Assembly: GCF_027921745.1 (NCBI RefSeq)
Contig: NC_079239.1
Span: 3,189,501-3,253,500, forward strand
Source: Schizosaccharomyces osmophilus
Lineage: Eukaryota; Ascomycota; Schizosaccharomycetes; Schizosaccharomycetales; Schizosaccharomycetaceae
DNA: 64,000 nucleotides
Direction of reading: 5' to 3'
The position numbers and the translations under genes were made by a program. Position 1 is the first letter of the stretch. Each line of letters starts with the position of its first letter. The notes below the pieces were generated by a model. That model was not told the DNA's origin, searched no databases, and worked only from the letters and a program-made list of their open reading frames with translations. Positions 20,268 to 54,882 of this stretch are shown piece after piece.

Positions 20268-21044
20268 CTTCTTTTCAATAGTTTTCCGTAACTTCCAAAA
20301 CTTATCTAACTGTTACAAAGTCTCCCGATTATGGGTGTTTGAGCAATGAATCCCTTCGTTTGTATTCTACTTTGTTAATTTTTCTTCCTTTTAATATTAT
20401 TTCTTACGAGGAACGCTAACGCCTTGCTTTTAAAAAAGCCTACGATGTAAGGTGTTGTTGGTAAGGTCAACTGCTGGAAACCAAGGGAAAAGTTAAAGCT
20501 GAGTGACAACTTATTTAACACCTTGAATTCCTGTATTTTATAAGATATGTTATAGTTAACGCTTTTTACTGTTCCTCTAATTTCCATAAGAAAAAATTTT
20601 CAGAAGCCCTTTGGAAAAAATCCTTTTTTTTTTTTGTTGCACTCCTACTGTTGCCTTAGTAGACAGTACTTCTTAACAATTTAATTATTAGCAAAGATCA
20701 TCTTTCAATGTAGCGTTGCAACAGTTTTAGCATTTCTCGAACAGATGTTTGCTGAGAAGTCGCCAATTACCATAAAACTTACCAACCAAGTAAATCGTTC
20801 TTTTCCGGTGTCATACAACAAAAAAGATATCTAATAAGCTGTCACTGAAAGACTTGCATTGTTTCCAACCATCCTTCTGTTGGTGAGGTCCCTTTGACAT
20901 TGTAGGATCGGGACTCAATCTGAAGGATCCATCAAACGTTGTACCAAGATTGGAGATATTATTTCCTTTGAATAAAATAATTTGATTCTCCGTTGAGCTT
21001 GCTGATCCTGAAACCTTGCAGTAATTACACCAGTTCCTACCTTT
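20268..21044. other. Divergent region between seryl-tRNA synthetase and pex3
   Basis: 777 bases. A minus-strand stretch (about 20700-20820) contains a short frame beginning MTPEKNDLLGW followed by a GTAAGT donor, and downstream a helix-like frame VREMLKLLQRYIER. A tiny spliced gene is conceivable, but the phases do not join cleanly. A run of about 12 T residues lies near 20625. Confidence 0.35.
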
Positions 21045-22191
21045 ATGTCGCTTTCTAGACACGTAAAAAAGTGCTGCAACTTTGTCTTGGGAACATCAAT
21101 TCCAGTGCTGGCTCTTTGTTATGCAGATTCAAGTTTGAGAACAGCAATCGCCAAGCTTGCTGAGCAACGCGAATTGCAACTTTTGTATGTGTATAAAAAA
21201 AGGCTTGACTTAAACTAACCCTCTTCGTTCAGATACACTCAAAATTTTGAAAAAGCTCTTTCAGATGGTCAAACTAGTTCATGTTGCGTTTTTGATGCCA
21301 TAGCCAGTGAAATTGAGGAACAGCTTCCTTTAAACTCAATTGTCCAAAACCTCAGGAATTCTCGCTCCAGTGACCAAAATGGGGAAGAGAAGCTCTCATT
21401 GTGGAATGAGCTAAAGTTTCAATCCATTGTGCGACTTTTGACGACTTTATGTGTGATAGCAGAATGCAATACCCTGACCAAGACTTCTTTAACAATCTTG
21501 GGACGCAAAAACTTTTGTCTACATGCTTCCAAAAAATACGGTGCGACTTTTCATGATACATTCAAAAAAGAGTCGGTAGAAGATCCTGCTATTCTCATAG
21601 GGATCGTCTACGTACTGGTAAAAAAACAACTACCCTTTCTGATTGAACGTGTTTCTTCTTCTGTTCATAAACTCTTTGAAAGGTGCGTAAAAAATTATTT
21701 ATACAAAGCAAAGCTGACATATATCTAGTACTTCTCCTACAGACATAATGAAAGCAGATGATATTTTTGCATTATTAGAAGGGGCTGTTAGTGATTTATC
21801 TCTAAATTACGCATTTATATTTTCTCAAGATCGTGAAGGAATCCTTACTGAAATGTCAGAAAAGTATGCTGTCACGGGAGGTCTCTCCAAATTGTTGGAT
21901 GAACTCGAAGATTTTGTGACAGAAACAGATGCAAAAATCATCATTTCAAATCAAACAGAACTGTTGTTATTCCATTTAAAGACTTTTCTTCCTTCTAGCT
22001 CGGAAGAGGGCATTAGATTGGCCAAAATGTTAAGCTTTTTCACGAAGTTTAGTAGCACAATCACTGAACTGCCTATTAGAGAAAGTTTTTTTGAATCTAT
22101 TTCTCATGAATCTGAGGCAAAAACATTTACATCAATTGTCTATTCGAGTTTTGACCAGGAGCTTTTAGCTACTAAAGATTCTACTGTATAA
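21045..22191 (+). CDS. pex3: Peroxisomal membrane biogenesis protein Pex3
   Basis: Pex3 anchors Pex19 at the peroxisome membrane so that membrane proteins can be inserted. Three exons, 21045-21184, 21233-21682 and 21729-22191, give 350 residues. A basic N-terminus (MSLSRHVKKCCNF) precedes one hydrophobic helix (VLGTSIPVLALCY). The family core is clear in SLWNELKFQSIVRLLTTLC followed by LTKTSLTILGRKNF. The second intron uses a GTGCGT donor, with CTGAC and CTAG at its end; the later TACAG acceptor would break the frame. The last 27 bases overlap the ureF coding end on the other strand. No C-terminal targeting tripeptide is expected or seen. Confidence 0.82.
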
Positions 22192-41349: not shown

Positions 41350-42816
41350 ATGTCTGTCGGTACTGTCTACGGAAATACTCTCTCTTTTCGCGTGGCTACT
41401 GCTATGTCTACCGCCGCTGTCGCCGGTATTAAGGTAGACAACAAGGAAGTTGCCTTTGGCGATTTCCCAGCTGACCTCGCTGCCAAATTCCCTCAGAAGA
41501 AGGTTCCCGTTTTCGTTGGTCAAGACGGTTACTTGCTTTCTCAAGCCATTGCTATTGCACTTTATTGTAAGTAAACACGTGTTTAAAGTCTCTTTTTAAG
41601 TAAATCGGTGATGAAAACCGAAGAAAACGAAAAGTTTTTGCGCGAGCAAAATTTTTGGAAGATTCCGAGAAGTTTTGTTTTATGATGAGAATAATTTTTT
41701 TACAGTTATCCCTGTCTAAAAAATAGTGTTGAGAATGGTAAATCTGAACATGCGTAAAAACTTTTTTGTTTTCCTTAAAAAACACTTTTTAAGTTTATAT
41801 TGGACTTTTTACTAACTTTTTTAGTTGCTTCTTTTGATAAGACCGGTGTTCTCCTTGGTCAAGCTGCTGAAGAAAAGGCCAAGATCTTCCAATATGTCTC
41901 TTACTTCAACACCGAGTTTGCAAGTGCTGGACTTCCCTGGACTCTTGGCCGTTTGATTGGACCCTACAACGCTAATGTTGAGAAGCAAGCTCAAGCCTCT
42001 GTCGCTGCTGAATTGACTGTTTTGAACGAATTGCTTGCTGACAAGACCTACCTCGTTGGCTCTCGTCTCACTTTGGCTGATGTCTTTGCTGTCAACTCTT
42101 TGAGCTGTGTCATTCGTTTTGTTCTTACCAAGAGCGAATTAGCCAAGTACGCTCATGTCCAACGCTACTACAGCACCATGTACCACCAATGTGGTTTGGA
42201 CAGCATCATTGGACCTCTCAGTTTTGTTGAGAAGATGCCCGAGATCCCTAAGCCCAAGGCTAAGGAAGAACCCAAGCCTAAAGAAGAACCCAAGAAGGAG
42301 CAAAAGCCCGCCGAAGCCGCCGCTCCCGCTCCTAAGCCTAAGCACCCTCTTGCTGCTCTCCCCAATGGTGAGTTGAACATTGAGGAATTCAAGCGTGTTT
42401 ATACCAACCAAGACACCCGTACTGGCTCTCTTCCTTGGTTTTTTGAACACTTTGATCCCGAGAACTACTCTGTTTGGAAGATTGACTACGCCTACCCTGA
42501 AGATTTGAAGCAAGCCGTCTTTATGACTTGCAACTTAATTGGTGGTTTCTTCCAAAGACTTGAAGCTTCTCGTAAGTTCATCTTTGGCTGCTGCTTGGTC
42601 ATTGGTGAGAACGGAGACAACACCATCACTGGTGCCTTCGTAATCAAGGGTCAAGATCACGTCCCTGCGTTTGAGGTTGCTCCTGACTGGGAATCTTACA
42701 GCTTCAGCAAGCTTGACGTTTCCAAGCCAGAGGACAAGGCCTTCATTGAAGACGCCTGGTCTTGGGACAAGCCTATGTTCGGCCGTGAAGTTGCCGATGG
42801 CAAGGTCTGCAAGTAA
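41350..42816 (+). CDS. Translation elongation factor eEF1B gamma subunit
   Basis: eEF1B-gamma is the structural subunit of the complex that reloads eEF1A with GTP. Two exons, 41350-41566 and 41825-42816, give 402 residues. A glutathione-transferase N-domain (residues 1-80, SVGTVYGNTLSFRVATAMST) is interrupted after IALYF by the intron. The C-domain follows to about 210. A Lys/Pro/Ala linker (KPKAKEEPKPKEEPKKEQK) leads to the EF1G domain (about 245-402), ending WSWDKPMFGREVADGKVCK. The intron, at 258 bases, is long and hosts a C/D snoRNA. Codon bias is extreme, matching high expression. Confidence 0.95.
41670..41763 (+). ncRNA. snR38: Intronic box C/D snoRNA, snR38 orthologue
   Basis: Inside the eEF1B-gamma intron lie a C box ATGATGA (41682-41688) and a D box CTGA (41744-41747). 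They are flanked by a perfect 7-base external stem, 41670-41676 with 41757-41763. Between them, CAGTTATCCCTGT (41703-41715) is perfectly complementary to the universally conserved ACAGGGATAACTG of 25S rRNA. A D'-like CTAA follows directly (41716-41719). The fifth base before it pairs with the middle G of GGG, which is G2815 in S. cerevisiae numbering. In S. cerevisiae, snR38 directs Gm2815 and lies in the TEF4 intron, the gene for the same protein, so host, guide and target all agree. The mature RNA is likely about 41677-41756. Confidence 0.88.
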
Positions 42817-45719: not shown

Positions 45720-46460
45720 ATAAACTGCTTCTTCGCATGATACGATCCTTTTAGTTATGCCTTATGCTTCTTAATGATATTACGTTTTATATCAAATTGA
45801 AAGTTCAAACACATCCACTACAAACATAATTCACATCACATTAATTTTTATTTACTAGTATAAACAGTGAATCATTATCTTCACCAAAACTATTCTAAAG
45901 ACCTTTTGCAAATGCCATTCATTGTTCTATCATCTGTATAGTGTTAATAAAATTTGAAATCCAACAAGAAATGAAGAGAAAGAAATCTTCAGAAAAAAGG
46001 CAATATAAGGTTATCCTCAAACACCAAAAGGCATCAGAACAGGTCTGTAAATATTTTTTCATCATTCAAAGAAATCTTTTTCTTATATAAATAAACATAC
46101 CATTAGTTTATTAAAACATCTCGTTCCTGATACAGAACATAGCATACTGAAAATGAAGTAAACATAAAGCTCAAATTTATAGCTAATATTGTTTCGATTT
46201 GTGACTGTTTTTCGCTTATAAGCAGGTTTGCTAGCCATCTGTGATTTCGATAACGCAGTCCAACCGAGATTGTAATCTATTGAGGCATCTTGTTACCACT
46301 TGTTTTCGCAGAGTTGCTACTCGTAAGACGAAACTTGCCAAATACCAAATAATTGTTTGACAAGCAAAACGCCGGAATTAGCAGCTTTGCTTGTAAACAA
46401 ATAGGAGGAACGATTGTTCTGAAAATTCAATTTGAACTTTACGTTCTGTAAGTGTCCAGG
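45720..46460. other. Intergenic aif1 / leucyl-tRNA synthetase
   Basis: 741 bases. A HomolD-type box is at 46200-46207. No gene is seen. Confidence 0.45.
46200..46207 (-). promoter_or_regulatory. HomolD-type box upstream of lrs1
   Basis: TGTGACTG is the exact reverse complement of CAGTCACA, the HomolD core promoter element of fission-yeast housekeeping genes. It lies about 255 bases before the lrs1 start, rather farther than usual. Confidence 0.35.
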
Positions 46461-50138: not shown

Positions 50139-51289
50139 ATGTCGGAATTAAAAGAGGTAGGCAAAAATTGTAGAATATCTACTCACAAAGTTAGTTAGCA
50201 GGATTTTTGCATGATCAGAATCCACAGGTGAGAATGCTGGCTACTCAGCATTTACTCCCTTATACTGCAAGGAATAGCCCTCAATTTGATATTTGGTTTA
50301 ACAATAACTGTGAACCTGTGAAGGATTTGAAGGCTTTATTGAAGGATAAACCGCAGATTGCTAGCCAAGCCATTACCGCGTTGGTAAACGTATCTCAGAA
50401 TGCCTCAGTTCGGAGAGTTTTGATGGACGAGGAATTTCTAAATCTTGTTTTTGGCATTATCACTAATCCTGTGCACGGTCTCGCCGATTTGTCATGTATG
50501 GTTCTGTGCAATTTAGCTAAGGAGGAAGATTTTGTTCGCATCTTAGACATGAAGGTTCCTCTTCGCGAGTTTTCTCTTAGTAGAAATATTATTGATCAAT
50601 TGATGGACCTTTTTGTAAAGGGAACAAATCATGGTATAAATAAATATGCGAACTTTGACTTCCTTGCCAATGTGTTTGCAGATATGACTCGTTTTGAAAA
50701 AGGAAGGAAGTATTTCACTACAATCCAAGAATATGACAATGTTTATCCTGTGTCTAAATTGATTGTCTTTACGGAACATAACTCTATGTTGCGGCGCACA
50801 GGTGTATCAGCTATCATAAAAAATATTTGCTTTGATGCACCTTTTCACAAAACGCTTATGGACGAAGAAGGCGTAAATTTGCTTCCCTATCTTTTCCTTC
50901 CCTTGGCTGGTCCAGAAGACTTGGATGAAGAAGATATGGAGGGCATGTTTGATGAATTGCAATTGCTTCCCGATGACAAGAAGCGTGAACCTGATATGTT
51001 TATAATGAAAACGCATGTCGAATCTTTAATTTTGCTTTGTGCAACCCATGAAGGAAGAGAACACTTGAGAAGTCGCAAAGTGTATCCTATTATTCGTGAA
51101 CTGCATCTTCACGTTGAGGACGAGGATCTTCAAGCCCTTTGTGATCAGTAAGTATAAATCTTTGGGACATTTTTGGCTAACTATGACAGATTGGTTCAGT
51201 TGCTCGTCCGTGATGAAGCTACTGAAGAAGTAGAAAAAGCTACTGAAAACCCACCTGACGAGGAAGACGCTATTATAGAAGTCGATTAG
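50139..51289 (+). CDS. hgh1: Hgh1, eEF2-folding chaperone adaptor
   Basis: Hgh1 is an armadillo-repeat protein that works with the TRiC chaperonin in folding elongation factor 2. Three exons, 50139-50156, 50195-51147 and 51190-51289, give 356 residues. The first exon is only six codons (MSELKE). Its 38-base intron ends at the first of several TAG/CAG choices, chosen because only that one keeps the frame and yields LAGFLHDQNPQVRMLATQHL, the Hgh1 N-terminus. The conserved middle HGLADLSCMVLCNLAKEEDF and the late block KTHVESLILLCATHEGREHL are family signatures. The last exon ends in an acidic tail. Confidence 0.9.
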
Positions 51290-52013
51290 ATATATATTCT
51301 TTTTGAAAAGCGAGGAAACCGGTTGGGAAATGTGGTTATTATTAGGTTTTGACAAAAATGAATAAACTTTTGGACTGTGGGAGCACAAATAGAAGTAAGC
51401 ACTCGTCCAGAATAAAAGGGTAATGTAAAGTTATAATTTAATAACATTTACTTGGACACAACTTTTTTTTTACATATGGTTTTTTGGTTTGTTTAGAACG
51501 GCTTGTCGCAGATCTGCACACTTAATGTGGATACGGGAGGGATATGAAAATGGATCTAACGAAATTGGTATTTTGTTATGAAAATATGGCCAGCAGGGCC
51601 TGTTAAAAGGGTCCACCGAAAGGCATCGATATCCGCGAAAAGTTGCAGTTAATAGAGATCGATTCTTGGTCCGTACTGGTAGGTACAATTTGGCAAGATA
51701 GTCCATTTCTTCCAGAGTTGTTCTTTGTTGAAATGGGAAAATGTTAATAGTGGTCACGGATGAATTGGAAAGAACACTTCCTTGGTGAATTACGAGAAAG
51801 TAATGGGGAGAGAAAATAAAATATTTTGTTTGTTTTTTATGTTATGTTATGTAAGAAGAAGGAAAAAATGCACTTTCCTCGTCAATGGGAACGACCAAGA
51901 AAACATACTCTTTAATGGAATTTGAAGGTGCAATGAGCCAGGATGGTCTCTAGAGAAGCATAATTAAGATACGAAAGCAACGTCGACACGCGTTCTGCAG
52001 GGGGAGAAACAGA
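51290..52013. other. Intergenic hgh1 / wtf gene
   Basis: 724 bases. A minus-strand frame (open 51470-51838; ATG-started part 51470-51706) reads as fairly protein-like (MDYLAKLYLPVRTKNRSLL) but matches nothing I know. I see no 5S rRNA gene or LTR. Confidence 0.4.
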
Positions 52014-52690
52014 CTAGCTTCTTGTAGCTTTCTTGGTTTCACAAACAATAGTCACCACAGCTTCCTTGATGCCTTTTTTGCTAGAAAGAAAGGCAGACCA
52101 AATGCCACGCAGAGAGCAATGAACGCCTGTCTCTATGCCACTCGCGATGTTTCCCATAACTTCCTTGAAAATCTTGGTCCATGCTTCATAAGTCACTGTG
52201 GAATTAGTGAATGCATACAAACATCAAGTTGCAATCTTTCTTACCATATAGGATCCAGGAAAGAGATGCACAGTATACAAAGAAAAATCCAGCTAGGTAA
52301 GTGGAAGGATCCATGAACCGTGCCATGATCATGCAGGGCAGAGTCAATAGGAGAAATGCCGCAATACAAATTGGCAGTTTGATGTAGCAAGGAGAGGGAG
52401 GGTTTGCTGGAACATTCTCTTCATCATATTCTTGTGTTTCATGGGAAGTTTTCAATGTCTCTAAATAGAATTAGAATTCGTCTGCAATGCTTTCAAAAAC
52501 AACAGCATTTCCAATTCCGAAAAAAACCTTTTTATTAAGGAAGCGCATTTTTCTTACCTGAATAGGGAGGAGGTGGTATTTTTTCTTCAGAGACACTGGG
52601 TTCGAGGTATTCACCTATGTTGTTTTCATTGTCATCGAATGAATGCCAATTGTCAGGATGCTTTTGTAAACTTGTATATTTGTTTCTCAT
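52014..52690 (-). CDS. wtf-family gene (spore-killer meiotic driver family), long-isoform type
   Basis: wtf genes are fission-yeast selfish genes; known drivers encode a poison and a longer antidote from one locus. Three exons, 52690-52558, 52460-52245 and 52195-52014, give 176 residues with canonical GTAAG donors and TAG/CAG acceptors. The N-terminus MRNKYTSLQKHPDNWHSF resembles the wtf start. Exon 1 ends in a PY motif (EKIPPPPYS), as in the antidote-specific exon of family members. Two hydrophobic segments follow (IKLPICIAAFLLLTLPCMI and TYLAGFFFVYCASLSWILY). After them comes the family-like VTYEAWTKIFKEVMGNI and GVHCSLRGIWSAF. The model looks whole but short for the family. Whether it acts in drive, suppresses it or is inert cannot be read from sequence. 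I remember no wtf here in S. pombe, so the insertion is probably lineage-specific. Confidence 0.8.
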
Positions 52691-54882
52691 GATGAGAGGT
52701 TATGGACAGGACTCGGCAGTAGAATCATCAACAGAATCCCCAGCAGAGACGGTGGAGACCTTGCATCAACATTCAAGGACGGGTTCTTTGACTTTGAGAG
52801 TCAGCTACTAAGAGTGTCACTTGTCAGTCTATTCTTTAGGAGAATATCAGAGTACAAAACGAATCTCCAAAATTATCCAAACGCGTACATAATAAAATTT
52901 ATGTGATTTACGGTATCTGTTACTTGACATGGTTCCTTTATACAGAAAAGAACCAGATGAAAAGGTTGGTAAATTGTTTTTGTCTTTATTTTGAGGAGAC
53001 AAAAGTCATTTATTTCAAACTTACGTTAACCGTTTTGCAACAGAAAACAGGTTTCTTTCCAATTTTTTTTTTTAACCTTTCAAATTTAAACCATAGCACA
53101 TCCCTAACGAACACAAAAGAAATAAAAGAAAAAACACACACACTTTCTTTCCTAAATATTCTTAATCACTCTCTTTCTACTATTCTTGTTTATTTACTCC
53201 CTTTTCTTTATTTACCTTTAATTTTCATCGGATAAATCCTTTGTTTATTTACATTTCGTCGCACTCCCACACGCTTTCCTGCCTCGTCCCCTCTCCTACA
53301 ACATGACGTCTAGCGGGCCTTGCCAGCCTCATTTCGTCATTGAGTCTCGTCGAGCCTAAGATGACGCACTTGCACAACGTAAAATGACATCACTTATGAC
53401 ATAACTAACAGAATCTTGTTTCAAACTTTGTTTTCAGACTGATACCTTTTTTAGGCGGTCTCCTTTCCGACTTCACATTTTCTACAGTCTATAAATGGCC
53501 TTTTCAGTGTCGTTTCTTGACAGTAAAAAAATCTTTCTTTGGCTCTCTTTTTTTGCTCTTTTTTGCTCTTTTTTGCCGCCTCCTTTACCGAACCCCCCTT
53601 GTCACCTATGATCTAATTTAATTTGGTTTCCAATCAAATCTATTGCCACTAATTTTTGATGCAAATTCCTTTTTTTATTGGACCATCGCCCACTCATTAG
53701 CCTTTTAGATTTAGCTATTTTATAGCCCATTCTCGTTTTATTGAACACAAACCGAAGCTCGTGCTTCTAAGATTTTCGACAAACGTTGCTCCTTGCTCCT
53801 TGTGACTTGTTACGTGGTGCTGTCTCGCTTCTATTTACCGTTGATCGGTGGACTGCGTTGTGAAGCGAAACTCTTCTTTTCGTTTTGGATTTTTCTTTCT
53901 TCCAAAACCAAAACCAGCTGCGTTTTCTTCTTGAAATTTTTAATTCAAATTGAAGAATTTTCTATTTCTTTTCTAGTAGCTCTCGAGAGCTTTTGTATAT
54001 CACTGGTTTTTTGCTTCTTTGTTGAGTTAATTCTCAATTTCGTCGCGTTTAGGATCATTTCTTGGGTTTCTTTACTATTTGTATAGAAACGTCCCAGGTG
54101 GCTTTCATTTTCATTCTAATCACGTTTGATGGCAACATTTCCGTTGGGTTTCTTTCTTTCATTTAACTTTTCCCTTCTATTTCAGGATACAATGAGTAAT
54201 TGCTAAAACACATACTTCATTTGTTCCTTATTAAACTTCTACTTGGTTTGATTCTTAATTTGACATTCAACTTGGTTATCTGGAAATACCTTTGCTTTTT
54301 CTTTTATTTTTTTTCATTCATATTCATATCCTTGGTGTTTATCGATAAAGAACGTTACTTGGTTTGGTTTCTTTCTCTTTAATTTTCTTTTTTATTTTTT
54401 AAACCTTTTTTCCCATCTCGCCCTATCCTTTTTTTCCCTACTTTCTTTGTGCATTCAGTTCATTGGGACTTATTTCTTGTTTTTTCTTTTTTTTTTTTGT
54501 TTACAGGAACCTGATTGTTTCTTACTCATTTCTACCTTGTTATTCTTCCTTTTACTGATATCGTTCCTTACCAATTTTGTTTCCTCAATTCTTTTTTTGG
54601 TTACCCCCTTTTCGTTTCTTTTTTTAATACATCACAAATCTGCTAGTTTGTGTAACTTTTAATTCCGCATCATTCTTTGTTTCTATAATCCTACAGAGAT
54701 TGTATATCCAGGGTGTAAAGCATTGCCTTTTGTTTGTATAAACCTCTTTCCTTCCTAGTGGTAGATATCTTAAAGAGTTCCTTTACAGATTCTTCTTATT
54801 TTCAACCTAATTTCACGATCTTTCCTATTTCTGTTGCCTTTTTAATATACGCTTGAATTTTATCCTTGATAAAATTACAGAA
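52691..54882. other. 2.2-kb region between wtf gene and pyp1, T-rich pyp1 leader
   Basis: From about 53050 to 54880 the plus strand is very rich in T and C, with many (T)6-12 runs, giving chance frames full of Phe and Leu. This resembles the long pyrimidine-rich leaders of fission-yeast stress-response genes and the strand-asymmetric AT tracts of origins. Two forkhead-type motifs lie at 53186-53252. No gene is supported. Confidence 0.5.
53186..53252 (-). promoter_or_regulatory. Two identical forkhead/FLEX-like 12-mers
   Basis: TTGTTTATTTAC occurs at 53186-53197 and 53241-53252. Its complement GTAAATAAACAA fits the forkhead consensus GTAAAYA and is close to the Mei4 FLEX element. They lie about 500-560 bases upstream of the wtf gene, oriented toward it on the minus strand. 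Confidence 0.4.

Follow-up and report, generated by a model that had tools for sequence, protein, structure and literature searches.

The wtf genes of fission yeasts include poison–antidote drivers as well as antidote-only suppressors, and their published catalogue outside Schizosaccharomyces pombe (De Carvalho et al., PMC9562144) lists 2 predicted genes alongside 3 pseudogenes for S. cryophilus, 31 and 11 for S. osmophilus, and 48 and 35 for S. octosporus. Here, we analyzed a 64-kilobase (kb) stretch of S. osmophilus DNA (hereafter the window) and a spliced gene on its minus strand, at 52690–52014, that a sequence-only reading had proposed to be a wtf gene inserted between hgh1 and pyp1. It was compared with the wtf literature (PMC9562144, PMC11892871, PMC10721834, PMC10085805, PMC6526906, PMC13160552, PMC7032740, PMC6283613, and PMC12930445). 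According to PMC9562144, the published genes outside S. pombe resemble five-exon wtf genes, four-exon S. osmophilus genes without the fifth exon are classed as pseudogenes, and two intact genes, S. cryophilus wtf2 and S. osmophilus wtf16, have no alternative start. The same paper places S. cryophilus wtf4 where S. pombe wtf6 lies, between ago1 and cyp9. As to the age of the family, which the sequence-only reading had set before the split of the living species, presence in the ancestor of four species is published, whereas no wtf gene was found in S. japonicus. For functional Wtf proteins, the reported number of membrane segments is four to eight, antidotes work by co-assembling with a poison to which they must be closely identical, and a Wtf4 poison lacking exon 3 is nontoxic, assembles less, and takes on an appearance resembling the endoplasmic reticulum.

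Compared with these systems, the locus probably holds a short wtf-family member with an antidote-only layout, from which exon 3 and perhaps exon 5 have been lost and which would be either a relic or a weak antidote. Its gene model proved exact to the base: a mechanical search for the longest spliced open reading frame (ORF) over 51951–52760 returned the three minus-strand exons 52690–52558, 52460–52245, and 52195–52014, with the ATG at 52690, a stop codon ending at 52014, and a coding sequence (CDS) of 531 nucleotides (nt) that encodes 176 amino acids (aa). Exon 1 (133 nt) specifies an N-terminus of the antidote-specific type (MRNKYTSL...PPPPYS). Exon 2 (216 nt) encodes two hydrophobic segments, which confirm by hydropathy the two membrane segments proposed earlier and are predicted at about aa 71–91 (52321–52383) and aa 97–116 (52245–52305), and exon 3 (182 nt, stop included) completes the frame. 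Both introns are in phase 1 and have good splice signals, with acceptors close to the branch site; intron 1 (52461–52557, 97 nt) has a GTAAG donor, a CTAAT branch, and a TAG acceptor, and intron 2 (52196–52244, 49 nt) a GTAAG donor, a CTAAT branch, and a CAG acceptor.

Several marks suggest that this gene is wtf-like and probably a member of the family. The wtf-like start noticed in the sequence-only reading held up against a reference WTF exon-1 peptide, which itself matches the Pfam WTF model PF03303 (E-value 1.2e-19, profile positions 1–46): exon 1 aligns with it end to end with one gap and a global score of 56, carried by both ends of the peptide (M-K/R-NKY..L and PPYS). None of 20000 shuffles of exon 1 reached this score (mean 9.1, standard deviation 7.9), and exon 1 ranks first, before a runner-up scoring 28, among the 474 ATG-initiated stretches of the window that stay open for 44 codons, counts that overstate the independence of the match, the gene having been chosen for its wtf-like start in the first place. 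The predicted PY motif is also present, as PPPY at aa 40–43 (52562–52573, minus strand), just before the phase-1 intron 1; it would be the expected site for Rsp5/NEDD4-type ubiquitin ligases, and its position agrees with the single conserved PY motif found in the N-terminal tail of the intact antidotes of S. octosporus, S. osmophilus, and S. cryophilus (PMC10721834). Intron phase points the same way, as the construct coordinates in PMC11892871 imply phase 1 for intron 1 of S. octosporus wtf25 (exon 1 of 109 nt, vs. 133 nt here) and likewise for the intron that precedes exon 3 in S. kambucha wtf4. Finally, the last exon holds, at aa 130–136 (52137–52157, minus strand), the peptide MGNIASG, one near-unit of the 7-aa repeat IGNXXXG that PMC9562144 describes in exon 4 of many, not all, wtf genes. 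When the exon was shuffled 50000 times, the pattern [IVLM]GN...G, picked after MGNIASG had been seen, arose in 0.11% of the shuffles; it occurs once in the 11799 residues of the 20 long ORFs. The last exon may be homologous to the repeat-bearing exon of canonical genes (exon 4 outside S. pombe). A side feature of this exon is a 15-nt stretch that occurs twice (52055–52069 and 52154–52168), 87% alike, 99 nt apart, and in the same frame (IKEAV/FKEVM).

The position of this repeat-like unit is what suggests that an exon has been lost. Indeed, the exon-4 repeat region of the wtf25 antidote starts at nt 640 (aa 214; PMC11892871), that is, 84 residues later than the unit that starts here at aa 130, or 92 residues later if the longer exon 1 is allowed for, and exon 3 of S. 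kambucha wtf4 (bases 284–541 in the same paper) measures 258 nt, or 86 codons. The simplest reading is therefore that the middle exon is gone, a loss that would keep the frame if the introns on both its sides share a phase, an argument limited by an ambiguity of one base in the published end of wtf4 exon 3. With three exons rather than a five-exon-like structure, and with four-exon S. osmophilus genes that lack the fifth exon already called pseudogenes, the claim that the gene looks whole is doubtful, and its two predicted segments fall below the reported range. A downstream continuation of the gene was rejected, exon 3 having no consensus donor for joining anything. The 123-codon stop-free stretch that lies downstream (51473–51841, minus strand) was likewise rejected as a further exon or as a wag remnant, as it shows no coding signal (codon score −0.12) and has no Pfam match; among the open stretches of at least 30 codons in 51285–52013, only 51437–51345 is hydrophobic (1.83), all others reaching at most 1.07.

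Beyond the way in which the gene was chosen, several points weigh against family membership. The profile search that the sequence-only reading had recommended did not bear it out: the whole 176-aa protein matches no Pfam family at an E-value of up to 10, from a library that contained PF03303 and with no non-pombe Wtf protein run as a positive control, and, taken exon by exon, exons 1 and 3 match nothing while exon 2 retrieves only an unrelated domain of unknown function (E-value 0.22). This miss counts as weak evidence, because the best pair of S. pombe and S. octosporus Wtf proteins is only 16% alike (PMC9562144). The first eight letters of the reference exon-1 peptide were not found in the wtf literature searched, the match to the repeat is loose (M in place of I, and a single unit), and exon 2 taken by itself has a negative codon score (−0.059). 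The proposed family block EAWTKIFKEV / GVHCSLRGIWSAF was not confirmed either, as EAWTKIF and GVHCSLRG are absent from the wtf literature searched and the exon that carries the block has no profile support. Moreover, Rfam detects no 5S ribosomal RNA gene in the window and no weak 5S match within 51150–54860 (E-value up to 5), when such an association is reported for 72 of 83 wtf genes in S. octosporus, 33 of 42 in S. osmophilus, and two of five in S. cryophilus; a neighborhood of 5S genes or long terminal repeats (LTRs) is nonetheless common rather than universal among wtf genes, 11, 9, and 3 genes of these species, respectively, being without reported 5S association. Membership is supported by the similarity of exon 1, by where the PY motif sits, by the phase of the introns, and by a single IGNXXXG-like unit, but not by the PF03303 profile. 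Searches in other collections gave no confirmed relative: the best match among PDB sequences (E-value 0.22) was taken as chance, and neither the protein in prokaryote and virus contig collections, which say little here, nor an Hgh1 query in viral contigs yielded any.

These points leave room for explanations that dispense with wtf altogether. The gene could encode a membrane protein that is specific to the lineage, carries a PY motif, and is unrelated to wtf, such as a ubiquitin-ligase adaptor, which would fit a protein without Pfam match; a PY motif combined with membrane segments is found in other proteins too, and the motif [LP]P.Y occurs in 6 of the 474 ATG-initiated stretches, exon 1 among them. 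We nevertheless consider this unlikely, given the end-to-end similarity of exon 1 in combination with intron phase and a repeat-like unit. Still less can be said for a chance spliced frame in intergenic DNA, which we hold to be the least credible of the explanations. Admittedly, one of 400 dinucleotide shuffles yielded a spliced frame of at least 176 aa (178 aa), and 7 of the 86 other stop-free stretches outside the 20 long ORFs outscore the CDS in codon usage, some of them perhaps real exons, to which the negative score of exon 2 may be added. However, the CDS as a whole prefers its own frame (0.041, vs. −0.137 and −0.136 in the other two; exon 1 scores 0.067 and exon 3 0.118), its score, if low, falls between the extremes set by the 20 long ORFs (−0.065 to 0.362; 4 of the 20 score lower), and the consensus splice sites and exon-1 similarity likewise speak against chance. 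By the length of its spliced frame, the model ranks second among 144 real non-ORF cases (72 overlapping 810-nt chunks, both strands). The longest of these, at about 21001–21810 on the plus strand (211 aa, one intron), is perhaps itself a gene with an intron, which the ORF list failed to capture.

Within the family, the alternatives differ in what the gene can still do. A working poison–antidote driver with a noncanonical start or promoter is very improbable, and the driver option left open by the sequence-only reading is disfavored by anatomy: there is no ATG near the exon 2 start, the first methionine after Met 1 is Met 88, inside membrane segment 1, and intron 1 contains an in-frame stop that no in-frame ATG follows before exon 2 and lacks both a forkhead core and any FLEX motif with up to two mismatches. 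Absence of FLEX is not enough in itself to exclude a poison transcript, because short transcripts still arise from 14 wtf genes of S. octosporus that have no confident FLEX match (PMC9562144); together with three exons instead of five and two membrane segments instead of four to eight, it makes an ordinary driver unlikely. Possible, if less than probable, is a functional antidote-only suppressor, whose short form would have been selected to neutralize a matching driver elsewhere in the species, as wtf18-2 does with wtf13. The intact 176-codon frame, the good splice sites, the retained PY motif, and the lack of an alternative start that marks the published antidote-only genes all fit this scenario, and in S. 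pombe, antidote mimicry is a documented mode of suppression; the small number of membrane segments, the co-assembly and close identity that antidotes require, and the lowered assembly of the Wtf4 poison upon loss of exon 3 stand against it. A variant that we regard as doubtful is a stable mini-antidote, made of a sorting signal, one membrane hairpin, and a compatibility repeat, with the toxic middle dropped, which would direct poisons to the vacuole and could not itself turn toxic; if true, it would be a minimal natural suppressor. Our favored reading, a shortened antidote-type gene that is decaying or weakly active, partly overlaps with that of a functional suppressor, and the probabilities that we attach to the readings add up to slightly more than one. 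Either way, a relic or a weak suppressor is probably likelier than a killer.

On this favored reading, the gene would have kept three parts: a sorting module at the N-terminus (exon 1, with the PY motif), the first hairpin of the membrane section (exon 2), and a C-terminal exon with a repeat-like unit. The middle exon (exon 3) would be missing, and perhaps exon 5 as well. Its transcript would yield a single protein entering the secretory pathway, whose N-terminal tail should still recruit Rsp5/NEDD4-type ligases; the protein would be ubiquitinated through PPPY by ligases of the Pub1/Pub3 type and sorted from the Golgi to the endosome and vacuole. Without the region on which poison assembly depends, the protein would, we propose, be nontoxic. 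Since an antidote has to co-assemble with a poison that it closely matches, its role would be no more than that of a weak or very specific suppressor. So short a protein may co-assemble poorly with a poison, and the gene may by now be a relic that is decaying into a pseudogene.

As for the genomic context, a Pfam scan of eight ORFs of the window places a LeuRS and a DUF383/DUF384 (Hgh1-type) ORF on one flank, and a tyrosine phosphatase (Pyp1-type) and a TBC protein on the other, which upholds the neighbors proposed earlier as types, hgh1 and pyp1 being their presumed names. The resulting order, lrs1, hgh1, pyp1, and gyp51, is presumably also that of S. pombe. Taken by themselves, the wtf-like gene and its flanks would point to the octosporus group (S. 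octosporus, S. osmophilus, S. cryophilus, and S. lindneri); a GC content of 38.7%, next to the S. osmophilus mean of 38.27%, does not discriminate further. ARAGORN found no transfer RNA gene in the window, and a repeat scan of 51290–54850 returned short repeats only, LTRs not being searched by sequence. Three Rfam matches within 51150–54860 (E-value up to 5) were dismissed as falling below the gathering scores, including a match of a long noncoding RNA model that overlaps exon 3 (E-value 0.18) and was taken as chance. About 500–560 base pairs (bp) upstream of the ATG, in the region common to this gene and the phosphatase gene, three forkhead cores GTAAATA lie within 56 bp on the strand of the gene (53187–53252, minus strand), two of them one mismatch away from FLEX; no such cluster arose in 3000 first-order Markov sequences of local composition, in a test made after the fact. 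Elsewhere in the window, Rfam identifies the C/D-box small nucleolar RNAs snR56 (45987–46069, minus strand) and snoR38 (41674–41754, plus strand), the latter just upstream of the eEF1-gamma ORF.

At most, this locus adds a new member to the wtf family, and possibly one that is already catalogued. Neither pyp1 nor hgh1 is mentioned in the main text of De Carvalho et al. (PMC9562144), and the terms "three exons" and "three-exon" are absent from that paper; where "three exons" appears in PMC7032740, they are the last three exons of a class 2 gene, a passage that we discarded as a precedent for a three-exon wtf gene. A decaying copy would further document how wtf genes are born and die. A selected short antidote, instead, would reveal which parts of a Wtf protein suffice for antidote action, a question that the wtf literature considered here has approached through engineered deletions of complete genes.

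Among described genes, S. cryophilus wtf2 and S. osmophilus wtf16 come close, sharing a single PY motif in the N-terminal tail and an intact frame, but they belong to a set of genes described as resembling five-exon wtf genes, where this gene has three exons; the locus may be one of these two genes, a listed pseudogene, or an uncatalogued locus. With the drivers S. octosporus wtf25 and S. cryophilus wtf1 it shares an exon 1 with a PY motif as well as membrane segments, and with wtf25 also the derived phase of intron 1 and, as one near-unit here, an IGN-type repeat toward the C-terminus; unlike it, these drivers have five exons, an early ATG in exon 2, and more membrane segments, and wtf25 has about 84 more residues ahead of the repeat. 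Finally, like S. pombe wtf18-2 and the other class 2 antidote-only suppressors (PMC6283613, PMC7032740), it would make an antidote-type product only, whereas those genes have five or six exons and closely match the driver that they suppress, when no matching driver is known here.
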